Assembly (NCBI RefSeq): GCF_000758165.1
Contig: NZ_JNUP01000065.1
Location: forward strand, 85,359 to 149,358
Length of the DNA: 64,000 nucleotides
Origin: Spirochaeta lutea
GTDB lineage: Bacteria > Spirochaetota > Spirochaetia > DSM-27196 > Salinispiraceae
Direction of reading: 5' to 3'
Position numbers and translations under genes: made by a program. Positions 4,401 to 17,840 of the stretch are shown piece by piece. Below the pieces are notes generated by a model that saw nothing but the letters and a program-made list of their open reading frames with translations, ran no database searches and was not told the origin of the DNA. Each line of letters begins with the position of its first letter. Within the stretch, counting starts at the first letter, position 1.

Positions 4401-6716
4401 ATGGACCACAAGGACTACCGCCTGGCGGCGATCGTATTTACCGACATTGTCGGTTTTAGCCGAATGATGGAGCAGGATGAGTCGGGGACTATCCAGCTCC
4501 TGGAATACCACAACCAGCTTATCCGAAGCCGTACCGATGAGTTTAAGGGAAGCATCATTAAGACCATCGGCGATGCCTTCCTGGTGGACTTTACCAACAC
4601 CGTGAACGCCGTCCGCTTTGCCGTGGCAGTCCAGGGCGATTTAGAACAGTATAACCAGGAACATCCGGAAAAGAAACTCATTCTCCGCATCGGAATCCAC
4701 CTGGGGGATATTTATTTTTACGAAAACGATGCCCTGGGCGAGGGAATCAATATCGCCAGCCGCCTGCAGTCCCTGTGTAATCCCGGGCGTATCTGCATCA
4801 GTCAGGATGTGTACAACCTATCCCGGGGCAAGTTCGACGGCCCCGAGGTCCGGGAGCTCGGCGATGTTAAGCTCAAGAATATTACCCGGGAGATCCGGGC
4901 ATACGAAATCCTGACTGCCGGTACCGGCGATCCTGTGCCGCACCATGAGTATGCTCCCAAGGCTTCGGATCAGGGTGATTCCAATGCCCGGCCGTCCAAA
5001 CCCTCCCAGGCAGACAAGTCGTCTGCAGCTACCCCCCAAGGCCCTGCCACCAACCCCGACGGCACCGTGGACGAGGCCAAGCTCAAGGAGCTGGTGATCC
5101 TGGAGATCAAACGCGCCGGCCAGCGGCTGACCCCATCCCAGGTCCGAGGGTGGTTCGGTAACGGTCCCCTGCCCGAAGGATTGGATGCGGCCGTTACCAT
5201 GTTATCCCGAAAGGGGTTTCTTGCCCCGGAATCCCAGAATCCCCGACCCCAGGGCCGCCGCGGAAGCGGTTCCGGGTACGAATACAGTTCCGGATCCCCC
5301 GGGGGCAGCGGTGGGCGTCCCTCCTCACCCGGCCAGGGAAGAGCCCAGGACGGGGAATTCGAAGAAGGGATCCGGGAGCTGAAGCGGGCTGCCAAGCTGG
5401 TCGGCCGGGAGATTCAGAATGCCTGGCGCGACCGGGACAGCTGGTTCGCCGACGATCCCCGGGGCCGGCGCCACCGCATACCACGGCACCGGGCGGACGG
5501 TGAGAACGACCGCCGGGATAAGGAGGTGGAGCGCCAGTGGGACCGGGTGCTGGAAACCACCGGCGATCCCCAGGACGAAGAACAGTACATAATCCAGGAG
5601 TACCGGAAGCAGACCGATATTAGTTTGAAGAAGAGCGAGACCGGCCTAAAGGGTCATCTTGCCTCCTACATAGGGGTTAACGGATTGTTAACCTTCATCT
5701 GGGCCACCACCACGGCTCCGGGATTTCCCTGGTTCCTGATCCCCGCCGCTGCCTGGGGTATCGGTATGCTCAGTCACATCGGAAGCATCCGCCGGCGGCG
5801 CCGGGAGAACGCCGAGCTCAAGGCCCTGCCGGGATTGAACAAGTTTCAGCTTCGCCTGCTCCGGAAACTCCATAAAAACCGAGAACGCTGGGGTGGTCAC
5901 TTCCTCGGTTCCCTGGGAGCAAGCCTCTTTTTGGCCATGTTAAACCTCATTACATCGCCCATGGTTCCCTGGTCGGTATTTCCCATCGCGGGTATGGCCA
6001 TTGGGATTTTTACCCACCTGCCGGGATTCAAAAGCAAGGAACACCAATTGCTGGCCGATCTTCGCGATCAGGGGGTTCCGGTACAGATGCTTATGGACCG
6101 CAAGGACCGAAAGAAGCTCCTGGGTATGGCCCGGGATATTCCGGAGAACGCCACCCCCCAGGAGGCGGAGGCAGAACGGATGCGGGCTGTTATCCTGGCC
6201 CAGCTTGGGTCGTTCAAGGGAAAAAATCCCCTAGGGGATGATTTTGAGGATCTGCTGAACGACTATGTAGATCAGATTCATAGCCTCAGCCAAAAGGACA
6301 GGGAAATCGATTCCCTCCTGGGTGATCTCTCTGTCCAGAGTCTGGATAGGGATAAGGCTGAGTTGATAAAACAGAGGGATCAAACCGACCATAAGGCCCT
6401 ACGCGCCGAATACGAAAAATCCATTACCCAGATCGAGAAGCAGCAGAAGGCCTTTAATGACCTTGAGGCCGAGCGGCGGATGGTGAAGCTCAAGCTGTCG
6501 GGTGCTATGAATTCCCTGAGGCAGGTGCAGCTGGAGCTGGTACGCCTGAAGGGAACAGGAAGCCAAGAGCTTCCGGATCTGCGGGAACGATCTGGCCAGC
6601 TTAGTAGCTACCTCAGCGATATGCGTTCCGGCTATTCGGAACTGGAAAACAGCGACTTTGCTGAGCTTGAAAAATACCGGGATGAGCTGAAGAATGAAGG
6701 TTCTGATTTAGGCTGA
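4401..6716 (+). CDS. Class III adenylate/guanylate cyclase with duplicated 2TM modules
   Basis: A 771-aa protein. Residues 1-170 are a class III cyclase domain with both metal aspartates (D15 in FTDIVGFS, D58 in TIGDAF), a candidate purine-contact lysine K54, and the transition-state pair N117 and R121 (GEGINIASR). It should therefore be active, most likely making cAMP. A linker rich in Gly, Ser and Pro and a winged-helix-like stretch follow (to about residue 350). Two similar membrane modules come next, near residues 413-460 and 490-535. Both resemble the 2TM domain (HLASYIGVNGLL...WGIG and HFLGSLGASLFL...MAIG). The last 160 residues look coiled-coil. The cyclase is thus N-terminal and cytosolic, the reverse of many receptor cyclases. 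The start at 4401 is chosen from the promoter and the domain edge. Confidence 0.85.
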   Translation: MDHKDYRLAAIVFTDIVGFSRMMEQDESGTIQLLEYHNQLIRSRTDEFKGSIIKTIGDAFLVDFTNTVNAVRFAVAVQGDLEQYNQEHPEKKLILRIGIHLGDIYFYENDALGEGINIASRLQSLCNPGRICISQDVYNLSRGKFDGPEVRELGDVKLKNITREIRAYEILTAGTGDPVPHHEYAPKASDQGDSNARPSKPSQADKSSAATPQGPATNPDGTVDEAKLKELVILEIKRAGQRLTPSQVRGWFGNGPLPEGLDAAVTMLSRKGFLAPESQNPRPQGRRGSGSGYEYSSGSPGGSGGRPSSPGQGRAQDGEFEEGIRELKRAAKLVGREIQNAWRDRDSWFADDPRGRRHRIPRHRADGENDRRDKEVERQWDRVLETTGDPQDEEQYIIQEYRKQTDISLKKSETGLKGHLASYIGVNGLLTFIWATTTAPGFPWFLIPAAAWGIGMLSHIGSIRRRRRENAELKALPGLNKFQLRLLRKLHKNRERWGGHFLGSLGASLFLAMLNLITSPMVPWSVFPIAGMAIGIFTHLPGFKSKEHQLLADLRDQGVPVQMLMDRKDRKKLLGMARDIPENATPQEAEAERMRAVILAQLGSFKGKNPLGDDFEDLLNDYVDQIHSLSQKDREIDSLLGDLSVQSLDRDKAELIKQRDQTDHKALRAEYEKSITQIEKQQKAFNDLEAERRMVKLKLSGAMNSLRQVQLELVRLKGTGSQELPDLRERSGQLSSYLSDMRSGYSELENSDFAELEKYRDELKNEGSDLG

Positions 6717-12333: not shown

Positions 12334-14175
12334 TTATTTTACATAGAGTCGGGCGGTAAGACCTTCCCAGTCATAATCTTCTGTGGGGTGTGGTTTTACG
12401 TTACCCAGTTTGCTGTTGTAGGCCTCCAGCACGAGCAGGTTGTAGGTGTACACCCAGGGCAGCTCATCGGCCCAGATCCGCTGGATCTTTTCGTAACCGC
12501 TGATGCGCTGAGCTTCTTGTACGGTGTTATTGGCCTCAATCCATGCCTCATCCACGGCCTTTTCCCAGTCGCGCCGGGGACTTTCCTGGTTCGGCTCGAT
12601 CATGTGCAGGTTCCCGTAGGAGGGATACACATTGGCGCCGGATATGGGGTCGATGGAACCGGTAAGTCCGATAAGAATCAGGTTCCAGTCATAGGTTTCG
12701 GTAAGCTGGCCTACCAGAACATTGAAGTCGATGGGACGGAAATTCAACCGGATTCCCACATCTGCAGCTTCCTGGGCGATGGCCGTACCGATGGCTTCCC
12801 GGGTTCTGTTGCCGGAGTTGGTAATGAATTCCAGGGATATGGTATTCCCGTCGGGATCTTCCCTCCAGCCGTCCCCATCTCTATCGGTGTAGCCAATTTC
12901 GTCCAAGAGTTCGGCAGCCCGGATGGGATCATAGTGGGGGGCCGCATCGTCAACCCCATCCCAGTAGTAGGGACTAAACCGGGGAACGAAGCTGTATTGG
13001 GGATACCCGAAACCGAATTCAATGTTGTTGATCAAGGATTCCCGGTCAATCAGGTGAGCGATGGCGGTCCGGAAGGTTTTGTTGGAGAGCCAGGTCAACT
13101 GGGGCTCGGAGATTCCCAAATCATCGGGTCCTTCAATGGGATTCTGATTGAAGGTAATGAAGTTGGTTGCGGTAGCCGGGCCGACCTCGTAGATATTAAA
13201 GCCTACCTGATCCTTAGCGTCTACCAGGGTGGAGTAGTCCTGACCACGGGCAACGTAGAAGTCTGTCTGTCCGGAGATGAACTGCTGAAGCTGGGTATCC
13301 TGATCGGGGGTATAGATGTATACCATTTCGTTCAGGTAGGGCAGTCGGGTGCCGTTGGCATCCTTCTCCCAGTAGAGGGGGTTCGGTTTGAAGGTGGTCC
13401 GCTGAGCGGGAACATGTTCGGAGATAACCCAGGGGCCTGAGCTTGGAATCTCAGTGGGATCCGAATCAACACCCCAAAGGGTGTTTACCGCGTCGGCACC
13501 GCCCTCATCGTAGAGGGGGCCAACGATGTGCATGGGCAGGCTGTATACGTTGAGCATATTCATGACACCGGCGTATACGGTGTCCAGGGTTACCTTCAGG
13601 GTATACTCATCGATGAGTTCCCATTTGGAAGGAACACCATTTACCGTTAGAGAATCCCGGGTGGAAGTCTGAATATTTTCATCGTAGATAATCTTATTTA
13701 CGGTTTCTACCCAGTCCCGGGCGGTAACGGGTTCTCCGTCGGACCATTGCATACCGCGGCGAACCTTTACGGTGATGGACTTCTGATCATCCGAGAAGGT
13801 CCAGCTTTCAGCTGCTGCGCCCTCCCATTCCAGAGTCATCTGATTTCTCCGGGTCAGGGGCGTAAACAGCCGTTCGGTAACATCCGTTGAGCTGGTTTCT
13901 TCTGCCAGGGCGAAGTTGAAGGTCTTGGGTCCAGCGCCAAGCTGGGAAATTACAAGCCGTCCACCTTTTTTTCCGATTTCCCATCCCTCATGGACGGGTA
14001 TGGTAAGCCCGGGTGCGACGGGCTGACGTGTCTGGGCAACTTCCTCCCTGGGTGCCTCCTCAGCTACTTCCTCGGTCTGGGTGGGACCTTGGGGTGCGGG
14101 TTCTGAGGAACCGCCTGCAAATACAGGGGTCAGAACCATGAGCGCAATAAGCGCGAAAAGGAAAAACCTATTCAT
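12334..14175 (-). CDS. oppA: Oligopeptide-binding protein OppA-like (SBP family 5)
   Basis: A 613-aa extracytoplasmic solute-binding protein of family 5 (SBP_bac_5). It has a cleavable signal peptide ending AFAG-like (VLTPVFAGGSSE) with no lipobox cysteine, so it is predicted to be free in the periplasm. A Pro/Glu/Gln/Thr-rich linker of about 30 residues follows. Family motifs include the N-terminal VTERLFTPL region and RRGMQWSDGEPVTARDWV. Of two adjacent ATG codons (14178 and 14175), the second is spaced better from the aaaggagg site. It captures peptides for OppBCDF and heads the operon. Confidence 0.92.
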   Translation of the reverse strand: MNRFFLFALIALMVLTPVFAGGSSEPAPQGPTQTEEVAEEAPREEVAQTRQPVAPGLTIPVHEGWEIGKKGGRLVISQLGAGPKTFNFALAEETSSTDVTERLFTPLTRRNQMTLEWEGAAAESWTFSDDQKSITVKVRRGMQWSDGEPVTARDWVETVNKIIYDENIQTSTRDSLTVNGVPSKWELIDEYTLKVTLDTVYAGVMNMLNVYSLPMHIVGPLYDEGGADAVNTLWGVDSDPTEIPSSGPWVISEHVPAQRTTFKPNPLYWEKDANGTRLPYLNEMVYIYTPDQDTQLQQFISGQTDFYVARGQDYSTLVDAKDQVGFNIYEVGPATATNFITFNQNPIEGPDDLGISEPQLTWLSNKTFRTAIAHLIDRESLINNIEFGFGYPQYSFVPRFSPYYWDGVDDAAPHYDPIRAAELLDEIGYTDRDGDGWREDPDGNTISLEFITNSGNRTREAIGTAIAQEAADVGIRLNFRPIDFNVLVGQLTETYDWNLILIGLTGSIDPISGANVYPSYGNLHMIEPNQESPRRDWEKAVDEAWIEANNTVQEAQRISGYEKIQRIWADELPWVYTYNLLVLEAYNSKLGNVKPHPTEDYDWEGLTARLYVK

Positions 14176-14205
14176 CATAGCCTCCTTTGAATTGTCTATC
14201 TATTC

Positions 14206-14295: not shown

Positions 14296-14327
14296 AGAAA
14301 ACGCCCGGACTAAGGCATCCGGGCGTT
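14296..14327 (-). terminator. Rho-independent terminator of the PPIase transcript
   Basis: A perfect 10-bp stem (aacgcccgga at 14300-14309 with its complement at 14318-14327) is followed on the minus strand by ttttc and, a little later, a second T-run. It lies about 280 nt downstream of the isomerase stop codon. Confidence 0.6.
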
Positions 14328-14360
14328 CGAGGATCTTCCGCATCAGACGCTTATGCAAGA

Positions 14361-14520
14361 GTTTTCCAAAATTGCGAAACAGTTTTGGAAAACGGGGCGG
14401 CGGGCAAGCCCGCCAGCTGTCCTGCGTTGCTTCGCAACTTCGGACAACTGACGGGTATCCACCATGTCTCGGTCAAGCCTGCTGCTTGCCCAAGCCGCTG
14501 CGGATACCCACCGCCCCGTT
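14361..14520. repeat. Cloverleaf-like cluster of inverted repeats
   Basis: Hairpin one is a perfect 11-bp stem (gttttccaaaa, 14361-14371, with 14383-14393). Next to it, aacggggcgg (14391-14400) pairs with ccgccccgtt (14511-14520) and encloses three more stems. These are ggcgggc/gcccgcc (14399-14414), cagctgtcc/ggacaactg (14414-14450, with an inner gttgc/gcaac stem) and gggtatcc/ggataccc (14453-14460 with 14502-14509, inner caagc/gcttg). It could be a structured RNA or a folded DNA element. Confidence 0.6.
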
Positions 14521-14570
14521 GTAGGAGTGCCGGCTGCCCATGTCCTGGGGTACCGGCGCTATGTGGAAGA

Positions 14571-14604: not shown

Positions 14605-15654
14605 TTACTCGACAATATCCAGGAGTTCGATCTCAAAGTAGAGGTATGCTCCCGGTGGGATGACCCCGCCTGCTCCCTGATCGCCGTAGGCGAACTCCGG
14701 GGGAAGAACGAAGATACGTTTCTCGCCGACCTTCATCTGGGGCACCATGATGTCCCAGCCGGGGATCAGCCGTCCTACTCCGATGGGGAATTCTGCTGGG
14801 CCGCGCTGCTGGCTGGTGTCGAATACTCGGCCGTCTAAAAAGGCCCCGGTGTAATGAACGCGGACAGTCTGGCCGGGGTCTGGAGAGCTGCCGCTTCCTT
14901 CCTGGGTGATCTTGTAGCGGATACCGTTGGAATCCACCTGGGCATCGGGAATAATGGCTTCGGCACGTTTACGGTCCGCCTCCTGCTGTTCCTGCTGGTA
15001 GGCTGCCTGGCGCTCCGCAGCATTTTGAAGTTCCTGATCGAATAGCTCCTGGGTAACCTGGAAGTTTTCGGCCGCCTCGCCCTTCCGGATAATCTCCAGG
15101 GTATTGATGGAATCGCCCTGTTCAATGGCGTTTACGACATCCATGCCTTCCACTACGCGGCCGAAAACGGAGTGTTTGTCATCCAGCCAGGGAGTCGGCA
15201 CATGGGTTATAAAGAACTGAGATCCGTTGGTATTCGGACCGGAATTCGCCATAGAGAGAATTCCCGGCTGGTCATGGCGGAGCTGGCTGTGGAACTCATC
15301 GGGAAACCGGTAGCCCGGTCCGCCAGTTCCATTTCCCTTGGGGTCTCCCCCTTGGATCATGAAGTCGTCGATGACCCGGTGAAAGGTGAGTCCGTCATAG
15401 AAGGGCTGCCCCTTTTTGGCATCCGTATCGAGGGATCCTTCGGCGAGCCCCACAAAATTCATAACGGTAACGGGGGTTTTTTCGAATTCCAGTGAGAGCA
15501 GGATGTCTCCCTTGGTTGTATCCATTCTTGCATATAGGCCGTCTGGATGTTGTGACATATCAAAGCCTCCTTCCGCGCATCCCAGCACGGTTGTTGCGAG
15601 GAGGAAGATGGCTGCATGTATTGCCAACCGCCATCCTTTCCGGATGTTTATCAT
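14605..15654 (-). CDS. Cyclophilin-FKBP fusion lipoprotein
   Basis: A 349-aa lipoprotein with signal sequence and lipobox (TTVLGC, C26). Residues about 36-190 are a cyclophilin domain ([15 protein letters not shown], then [17 protein letters not shown]). Residues about 245-349 are an FKBP domain ([38 protein letters not shown]). A Gln/Glu/Ala-rich helix joins them. Both are peptidyl-prolyl cis-trans isomerases, so this is a dual-domain folding catalyst anchored in an envelope membrane. ATG 15654 is preferred over codons further upstream because gaggag precedes it. It appears to be a single-gene unit with its own structured 3' region. Confidence 0.92.
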
Positions 15655-15714
15655 TCTTATGTCTCCTCTAGTATGAAAATAGTGCGGGCAGTCTACCATA
15701 GGGGGATGGGGGGT

Positions 15715-17553
15715 TCAAGTTTCATTTCTGCGGTAATGCCGCGCCTCGGCAAGCAATTGACGGACACCTTCTATGCGGATGGGTTTTTGAAGGACCCCCT
15801 GGATGGCTGATAGGCCTGGATCGTCCTTGGTATTGAACTGGCTCGGATCGTGGCCCGAGAGAAGGTAGAGCAGGGCCGGGGACCGTTTGAGGAGGGTTTC
15901 GAGGGTTCGGATTTCTTGGGCTGTCTCAACCCCCGAATATCCGGGCATTTGGTAGTCAATGATGGCGAGGTCGATGGGCTGCTGTTTGAAGATATCCACG
16001 GCCTCTCTGCCGGAAGCCGCAACATAGGGGGTAGCTCCGTAGCGGGTGACCATCCGTTCCAGTATCCGCCGGTTGCCGGGATTATCGTCCACGATGAGGA
16101 CCCGGAGAATGGATTGGCTTTCCAGGTCGAAGAGTTCGGTCTGGTTTGAGCCGGCGAGGTGCTGCAAGGATGCGGTTTGTTCGCCTAGGGGCAGATACAC
16201 GGTAAACACCGAGCCGGTTCCGGGGGTGCTGGAAACGGTGATGCTGCCTCCTAAAAGCTGAACCAGTTCTTTGGTGATTGCGAGGCCTAAACCGGTGCCG
16301 CTGGGGGTGCTGCGCTGCTGACGGGCATGGGAATCACCATAAAATTGAGAATACTTTTCGAAGATTTGACTCAATTGCTCGGGTGGGATTCCCGGTCCGG
16401 TGTCGCTGATCCGGAAGGAGAGGGTGGGCTCTGGGAAGTCGGCTGAGACGGGCTCCCGGTGGATTTCCAGGGCGACCTGACCCCGGTGGGTGAATTTGAC
16501 GCCGTTTCCCATGAGGTTGAAGAGGATTTGCATCAGGCGGCCTTGGTCCCCGGTGATGAAGCGTGGGACTCTGGGATGAATCCGTGCGGATACCTGGATA
16601 TCCGCTCCCGAGGCTGAGTGGGAGACGGTTTGGAGGACCAGATCGATGGTTTTTTTGAGGTCGAAGGATCGGGATTCGGGGATGAGTTTTCCTGCTTCTA
16701 TCTTCGAGAGGTCCAGGATGTTGTTTATCAGGGTAAGGAGGGCCTCGGCGTTGTTTTGAATGCCCTGGGCGTATTCATGCTGGTCTTGGGTGGGTTTGGA
16801 TTCGATGATCAGTCCGGCCATTCCCAGAATACCGTTCAGGGGGGTTCGCAGCTCGTGGCTCATTCCGGCGAAGAATTCCTGTTGGGATGTTTTCGTTTTT
16901 TCAAGTCGGTCCCGCTGGCGGCGGAGCATGTTTTGGTATCCCAGGACCCGGAGGTATCGCATACGGTTGGAATCGATGAGGGAGGCGATGATCAGTCCCT
17001 GGAGGGCCAGGATGGCGCAGGAGAAGACAAAGAGGAATATCCACTGGGGCTCCCGGGGAAGTTGCTCACTCCGGGAGAGGTAGGAGAGCACCAGTCCGAA
17101 GGATAGGCCCCCGGTTATCCCTGCCGTGATGCTCAAGGATGATCGGAGGAGCAGGCTTGGTAAAAGGAGAAAGGGGGGAATAAACAGGTACAGGATGATG
17201 AGCCGGGGGATTTCGGCAGGCAGCAATAGCCCGAGGCTGGCAATGAGTATGATGTCTATGCTGAGAAAGGGATGAAAGAGGCTTCCCGGGAATTCACGGT
17301 TTTTACGGTGACGCAAATAGCAGATGATGGGCATGATGGGCAGGTAGATCAGCATGCCGAGGGCGTAGATGATCCGTTGGGTTGTATACGGATCGGGCAG
17401 GGGTAGACGGCGGTACCAGAATACTAGCTCATAGAGGAACAGCCCGGCAAAAATGAGGAGTCTGACACGCTGCATCCGTAATTCTGATTTTCGCCTGTCG
17501 TCGGGATCCAGGACGTTGCTGTTGGAAAGAAACCGGCGGATACGGGAGTTCAT
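15715..17553 (-). CDS. Hybrid sensor histidine kinase with receiver domain
   Basis: A 612-aa protein. The N-terminal 190 residues contain about six hydrophobic segments and no recognisable sensor domain. A HisKA domain follows, with the phospho-accepting histidine near residue 233 (MSHELRTPLNGI), then HATPase_c motifs (N-box LMGNGVKFT, G1 DTGPGIP, G2 GTGLGLAI). A C-terminal receiver has the acidic pocket (VDDN) and phospho-acceptor aspartate near residue 533 (IIDYQMPGYSG). No phosphotransfer domain or partner regulator is nearby. The start at 17553 is chosen because the sequence before it is intergenic and carries the serA terminator and a mobile element. A -10-like TACACT ends 6 nt before this ATG. 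Confidence 0.9.
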   Translation of the reverse strand: MNSRIRRFLSNSNVLDPDDRRKSELRMQRVRLLIFAGLFLYELVFWYRRLPLPDPYTTQRIIYALGMLIYLPIMPIICYLRHRKNREFPGSLFHPFLSIDIILIASLGLLLPAEIPRLIILYLFIPPFLLLPSLLLRSSLSITAGITGGLSFGLVLSYLSRSEQLPREPQWIFLFVFSCAILALQGLIIASLIDSNRMRYLRVLGYQNMLRRQRDRLEKTKTSQQEFFAGMSHELRTPLNGILGMAGLIIESKPTQDQHEYAQGIQNNAEALLTLINNILDLSKIEAGKLIPESRSFDLKKTIDLVLQTVSHSASGADIQVSARIHPRVPRFITGDQGRLMQILFNLMGNGVKFTHRGQVALEIHREPVSADFPEPTLSFRISDTGPGIPPEQLSQIFEKYSQFYGDSHARQQRSTPSGTGLGLAITKELVQLLGGSITVSSTPGTGSVFTVYLPLGEQTASLQHLAGSNQTELFDLESQSILRVLIVDDNPGNRRILERMVTRYGATPYVAASGREAVDIFKQQPIDLAIIDYQMPGYSGVETAQEIRTLETLLKRSPALLYLLSGHDPSQFNTKDDPGLSAIQGVLQKPIRIEGVRQLLAEARHYRRNET

Positions 17554-17673
17554 GGTGTAAGTGTAGCCTAGTGGACAAAACAATGTAACATGTTCCTTGG
17601 ACGCACTAGGCAATGGGTCGGGCAGGTTAACAAACCCAGTCGTGGTAGGCCCTGTCGTCCCAGACCGCGGCCC

Positions 17674-17706
17674 AAAAAAGGCCCCCGGTCTCTGAGAACC
17701 GGGGGC
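17674..17706 (-). terminator. serA terminator
   Basis: A 9-bp GC-rich stem (gcccccggt at 17681-17689 with its complement at 17698-17706) is followed on the minus strand by six T. It lies 140 bp beyond the serA stop, on the far side of a mobile element copy. Confidence 0.8.
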
Positions 17707-17731
17707 TGATACTGGGTATCTTGAAGGGGTA

Positions 17732-17840
17732 TATAGTGCGCAAAAGCTTGTAACATTGCACCTCGGAGACACAACCCATGGGTGGGATTATAAACTGCTC
17801 CGCTATATCTGATGTCGTTTACAACCTTTTGCGCACAATG
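17732..17840 (-). mobile_element. 109-bp MITE-like element, copy 2
   Basis: It has terminal inverted repeats like the other copies and lies between direct repeats gaaggggta (17723-17731) and gaagggtta (17841-17849), 8 of 9 identical. The right repeat contains the serA stop codon. The element separates serA from its terminator. It is inverted relative to copy 1. Confidence 0.87.

Follow-up and report, generated by a model that had tools for sequence, protein, structure and literature searches.

The window, by which we mean the whole 64,000-nucleotide stretch of Spirochaeta lutea DNA analysed here, carries on its minus strand an ORF for a cyclophilin-FKBP peptidyl-prolyl isomerase (PPIase; positions 14605-15699; Pfam PF00160 and PF00254), followed by an ORF for a peptide ABC solute-binding protein (12334-14178; Pfam PF00496). 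Between these two host-side genes lies a folded element, located 3′ of the PPIase stop and 5′ of a terminator-like hairpin on the same (minus) strand (14299-14328). The element does not overlap the PPIase coding sequence and would be part of the 3′ UTR of the PPIase mRNA, which agrees with the first-pass annotation of this DNA, where it had been placed between the PPIase stop and a terminator and hence expected to be transcribed. The PPIase is a fusion of a cyclophilin and an FKBP domain and has full-length relatives in same-family genomes. One of these genomes (G001) has the genes for SerA, the PPIase and the solute-binding protein in identical order, with a spacing between the last two of 187 bp versus 426 bp here. 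No match to the element was found in G001 by a DNA search of 60 relatives, and direct alignment of the G001 and window intergenic DNA scored no better than shuffled sequence, so that the absence of the element from G001 is deduced from gene order, spacing and the lack of a match rather than from an aligned empty site. The element is also absent from G002, another genome with an orthologous PPIase gene. In the window a hybrid histidine kinase gene (15715-17772) separates SerA from the PPIase, the two being adjacent in G001 and G002.

The nested pairing at 14361-14520 was confirmed and greatly exceeds what chance would produce. The 11-bp hairpin (GTTTTCCAAAA, 14361-14371, with TTTTGGAAAAC, 14383-14393) and the 10-bp closing stem (AACGGGGCGG, 14391-14400, with CCGCCCCGTT, 14511-14520) described in the first-pass annotation were both found in place, and its opinion that such pairing was unlikely to be accidental is borne out by the fold energies. 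The RNA fold of 14340-14540 has an energy of -88.6 kcal/mol compared to a shuffle mean of -69.6 (z -4.5), and none of 200 shuffles was as good. For the exact 160 nt, measured against dinucleotide shuffles, the top strand gave z -6.5 with RNA and -5.0 with DNA parameters, and the bottom strand was far more stable (z -9.6 and -8.0, respectively), with 0 of 300 shuffles as good in each case. The cloverleaf proposed for the region corresponds to the integrated form; what the full-length members have in common is the Y of the re-closed unit described below.

Comparison of the copies delimits a unit of 157 bp on the plus strand (14362-14518, TTTTCC...CCCCG), a putative gene-less integron cassette whose boundaries are shared, at 157-158 bp, by six full copies from three genomes and which matches our covariance model with 173 bits. 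The 160-nt interval originally outlined overshoots this unit, its last two bases, TT (14519-14520), being the right flank. The unit starts with TTTTCCAAAATTG directly after a G, which precedes it in every copy with a recognisable 5′ end, and the crossover point would lie between 14361 and 14362, at the G/TT boundary. This target G and the cassette start form the R′ arm (GTTTTCCAAAATTG, 14361-14374), which pairs with 14380-14393, the R″ arm. The R″ box reads CAATTTTGGAAAAC (CAGTTTTGGAAAAC in the window), is the covarying complement of the cassette start, ends in a conserved AAC and leads into the attC body. The sole sequence separating the cassette start from the attC is, as read from the sequence, CGAAA (14375-14379), a loop that differs between copies, and since only these 5 bases lie between the cassette start and the R″ box, the unit carries no gene. 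Nor does it contain a sigma-70-like promoter match. The left half of the body stem (GGGGCGGCGGG, 14394-14404) pairs with 14507-14517; its right half, together with the terminal G (CCCACCGCCCCG, 14507-14518), was assigned from this pairing and from the unit boundaries in aligned copies. Between the two halves are the first arm of the Y (14409-14455), with GTTGCTTCGCAAC at its apex, and the second arm (GGGTATCC...GGATACCC, 14453-14509), which shares 3 bases with the first arm and 3 with the body stem, these bases being able to pair in either way. The outer triplets AAC (R″, 14391-14393) and GTT (R′, 14518-14520) are those of a canonical attC site; in G079 they are ATC and G/AT instead, and the right-flank GTT is not kept at four isolated copies. 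Together with the G at 14361, the flanking TT gives the inferred target G^TT, in line with the rule that integrase secondary sites read 5′-GNT-3′ (PMC10127599; PMC4618277).

Re-closed into a circle, each of the nine full-length members adopts, as bottom strand, a Y shape that has two hairpin arms. The stem of the Y measures 24-26 bp and is uninterrupted in the best copies, with a mismatch or a few in the others. The re-closed fold is paired continuously, with no unpaired central spacer (UCS) between the R and L boxes, and the two or three extrahelical bases (EHBs) of a canonical R″-L″ arm are absent from the 24-26 bp stem of C21, G016a, G016b and G010b. By contrast, the canonical attC of the unit's own genome has a stem with interruptions. 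The bottom strand is more stable than the top strand in 11 of 11 members, by 0.8 to 12 kcal/mol. The arms of 13-14 bp bring the cassette start together with the complementary R″ box of its own attC, and, as the first-pass annotation had proposed to look for, their pairing is conserved in relatives, the arms covarying between genomes: GTTTTCC/GGAAAAC is replaced by GTTGTCC/GGACAAC in G097, GTTGGAT/ATCCAAC in G089 and GATGAGC/GCTCATC in G079. This covariation rests on comparing the two arms within each copy; RNAalifold run on aligned copies did not support it (covariation term +3.5 kcal/mol; double changes in 3 of 52 pairs), because close copies hardly vary and MAFFT misaligns divergent palindromes.

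A search for further copies, likewise suggested at the outset, found them both in the same genome and in relatives. DNA searches of the own genome yielded copies at 92%, 88% and 76% identity as well as shorter ones, to which pattern and covariance-model searches added weaker copies, so that about seven other sites bear a full, diverged or partial copy; the 64-kb window holds one. The isolated copies stand singly between ordinary genes, unrelated from site to site and in differing arrangements. In the five with both ends, the base on the left is G and the bases on the right are TT, GT, GT, CT and CT, and a sixth, which has no 5′ arm, ends G/TT. All six are single, outside any array and at 5′-GNT-3′ without target duplication, as is known of secondary-site (attG) insertions, although four of the six right flanks, being GT or CT, are covered solely by the loose GNT rule and not by TT. 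The probability of such junctions arising by chance is about 1e-6 when both bases are counted (five copies) and 1.6e-4 when the T alone is (six copies), the latter being the safer figure because the left G also precedes array copies; the G could belong to the element, which would make the junction statistic partly non-independent. This scoring left out the own-genome relatives at C62:29115 and C56:22836 as too diverged. The left flanks of the copies (AAGAG, CCCCG, AAAGG, ACCAG, CAAGG, GGGAG, GAACG and ATCCG) have one G in common. Some of the joined flanks of isolated copies pair with each other when folded, in a comparison run with no control. The same genome also harbours a 59-bp miniature (L011:2038-2096; contig C62, near 215 kb), consisting of the R′/R″ hairpin and a single short GC-rich stem and ending G/CT.

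Beyond the own genome, the unit was found in two of the 60 relatives, G010 and G016 (Alkalispirochaeta alkalica DSM 8900), and, partly in divergent form, in seven of 395 genomes of the class; its relatives reside in A. alkalica, a congener and Treponema-like genomes. The two A. alkalica copies (4577-4733 and 5665-5821) have the same orientation, are spaced 1088 bp apart and flank a gene cassette. A defining trait of integron cassettes is that the cassette start supplies the half that its own attC lacks, and the cassette between the copies indeed begins, at the end of the first copy, with GTTATGAGAAATACCC, which pairs with its own R″ box GGGTACTTCTCATAAC; this box precedes the cassette's attC-like hairpin, which extends up to the G in front of the second copy. 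G010 has a like arrangement, with cassettes starting GTTGCCAACC and GTTATAAGCA and boxes GGTTGGCAAC and TGCTCATAAC. The Treponema-like genomes G324 and G089 have a homologous unit, 149-150 bp long, after canonical attC sites that end in AAGCGGATG and GAGCGAATG directly before the TT, and the unit ends at G/TTAGG before the next cassette gene. Within their arrays, the copies in G016, G010, G324 and G089 are bounded by a G/TT crossover at either side. A chimeric site in G010 (L022:2615-2760, contig C32) has the left part of a canonical attC (TATAACAGCAAGTATATG) fused to the right-hand portion of the gene-less unit, such as a deletion or a recombination event between two adjacent sites would leave behind. 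The cassette gene that follows the unit in G089 (L099:2951-6727) encodes a protein of 1258 aa that, judged by eye, looks like a DNA methyltransferase.

An integron integrase (IntI) is encoded in the own genome, scoring 343 bits against a TIGR02249 cut-off of 265; this cut-off was exceeded in G000, G010, G016, G089 and G097, and a search with the same profile did not find IntI in G324. The own predicted integrase (L035:15747-17372, contig C44, minus strand) comprises 541 aa, with a long Gly-rich stretch inside the N-terminal SAM-like domain. In G097, a second, partial integron-integrase match (C36:9588-10118) occurs just upstream of the unit, at the contig end. Directly beyond the own IntI lies a first cassette with the start GTTATGTT, the R″ box AACATAAC and a canonical attC. 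Shortly beyond this the contig stops, and several other contigs carry attC-like pieces, many of them located at contig ends, as expected where an array breaks an assembly. The unit was not found in the pieces of this fragmented array that were examined. A generic AAC...GTT scan combined with fold energies was discarded as a means of listing attC sites, being too unspecific and missing the obvious site beside IntI.

Taken together, the element is quite probably a gene-less integron cassette reduced to its attC and inserted off-array at G^TT between the PPIase stop and the terminator. The direct support for this consists of a repeat with fixed boundaries, its position between cassettes, the covariation of the arms, the bottom-strand bias, the presence of IntI, the G/NT junctions and the element-free gene order in a relative. 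Of the three possibilities raised in the first-pass annotation, that of mobile DNA working as a folded strand fits a repeated unit lying between integron cassettes and folding best as bottom strand, while a small RNA or an RNA-stability element gained no positive support. By analogy with established integron biology, the bottom strand would fold when the DNA becomes single-stranded, and the host IntI would cut the folded strand at the G/TT boundary and join it to another site. Joining to attI or another attC would give the copies in arrays, and joining to a degenerate chromosomal G^NT site the isolated ones. That IntI moves the unit, that the unit retains its mobility and that its presence at the PPIase site is selfish rather than of use are presumptions of the same kind. 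Canonical IntI might recombine it poorly, because the stem has neither a UCS nor EHBs. For the Vibrio cholerae VCR, removing the EHBs and pairing the UCS together lowered bottom-strand recombination about 85,000-fold (PMC2727003), although recombination was not prevented when the extrahelical bases alone were lost. One of three things would then apply: spirochaete integrases have a greater tolerance, the unit seldom moves, or it takes a different route.

The best of the alternatives is that the unit is an independent miniature element, MITE-like or derived from IS200/IS605, which is mobilised by a different transposase and by coincidence inserts at attC crossovers and at junctions resembling them. 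A near-palindromic, non-coding, dispersed sequence without UCS and EHBs, whose 59-bp version keeps the end architecture, would suit such an element. However, there is no target duplication, the constant left target is a single base, unlike the fixed 4-5 nt of IS200/IS605, the ends fall exactly on the integron crossover in arrays from different genera, and pattern and covariance-model searches found no longer element with these ends. We therefore regard this explanation as unlikely, though it deserves more credit than the others. Searches of phage and plasmid collections gave no match to the element.

It is less probable still that the copy in the window is the leftover of a former cassette array at this locus, of which one cassette remained. 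Integrase-less attC clusters are common, and an attC that stands alone can be genuine (PMC9024848), but one genome has at least six isolated copies at unrelated loci, and the gene order around the window copy matches that of G001, where no array is seen. Least credible of all is a structured RNA of the PPIase transcript (a 3′-derived small RNA, a stability element or an accessory terminator), for which the site before the terminator and the greater stability of the transcribed strand could be invoked, but whose copies adjoin unrelated genes, are lacking in G001, G002 and like genomes with an orthologous PPIase, show conservation that tracks cassette boundaries rather than a gene, and have no Rfam match above the gathering score. 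At a permissive threshold a single Rfam family came up, as a chance match far below its gathering score. Even if the element is an off-array cassette, a local effect on mRNA stability is possible.

Several aspects of the cassette reading have precedents. Gene-less cassettes are known, including in Treponema and Vibrio, and several of those tested had promoter activity (PMC6557892, PMC11014356). Like them, the unit has no ORF and lies between gene cassettes, but it has only about 5 nt outside the site and no sigma-70-like match, is repeated and conserved, and also occurs off-array. With the VCR (PMC2727003) it shares a long site, a stem of about 25-34 bp, a branched top, a bottom-strand fold and the AAC/GTT triplets, whereas the missing unpaired central spacer and extrahelical stem bases and the two-armed Y set it apart. 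Cassette insertion at secondary or attG sites is known from Recchia and Hall 1995 and Loot et al. 2024, as cited in PMC10127599 and PMC12901181; from what those citations convey, a single off-array cassette at GNT without target duplication is a common feature, and the difference is that here, in a single natural spirochaete genome, one gene-less cassette would have gone to sites of this type repeatedly, its insertion being deduced from sequence. For spirochaete chromosomal integrons, earlier reports describe IntI, arrays and, in Treponema, attC sites measuring 63-132 bp (Wu et al. 2013, PMC3607928; attC models in PMC8352920), and according to Wu et al. Treponema is the only spirochaete clade found with integrons, compared to which IntI and arrays occur here also in Alkalispirochaeta and in the genome of the window. 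No description of this Y-shaped unit was met in the sections of PMC3607928 and PMC8352920 that were consulted, nor did a literature search, with most subscription journals beyond its reach, return any cassette that is Y-shaped, near-palindromic and site-only and that is dispersed inside as well as outside arrays. What appears new is therefore such a cassette common to Spirochaetia, gene-less cassettes and off-array insertion being already known.

One may go further, although we hold this as a tentative and rather doubtful proposal, and envisage a class of bare-site integron parasites: near-palindromic, Y-shaped, gene-free cassettes without the landmarks that integrases are believed to require, spread in arrays and chromosomes of Spirochaetia, where either the integrases would read folded DNA differently or another recombination route would mobilise them. 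The spirochaetes are a phylum proposed as a source of some resistance cassettes (PMC8352920). If the cassette reading is right, integrons with such cassettes would be documented in free-living spirochaetes, a natural site without spacer or extrahelical bases would be available for testing what integron integrases recognise, and integron recombination sites alone could act as dispersed selfish repeats in natural genomes.
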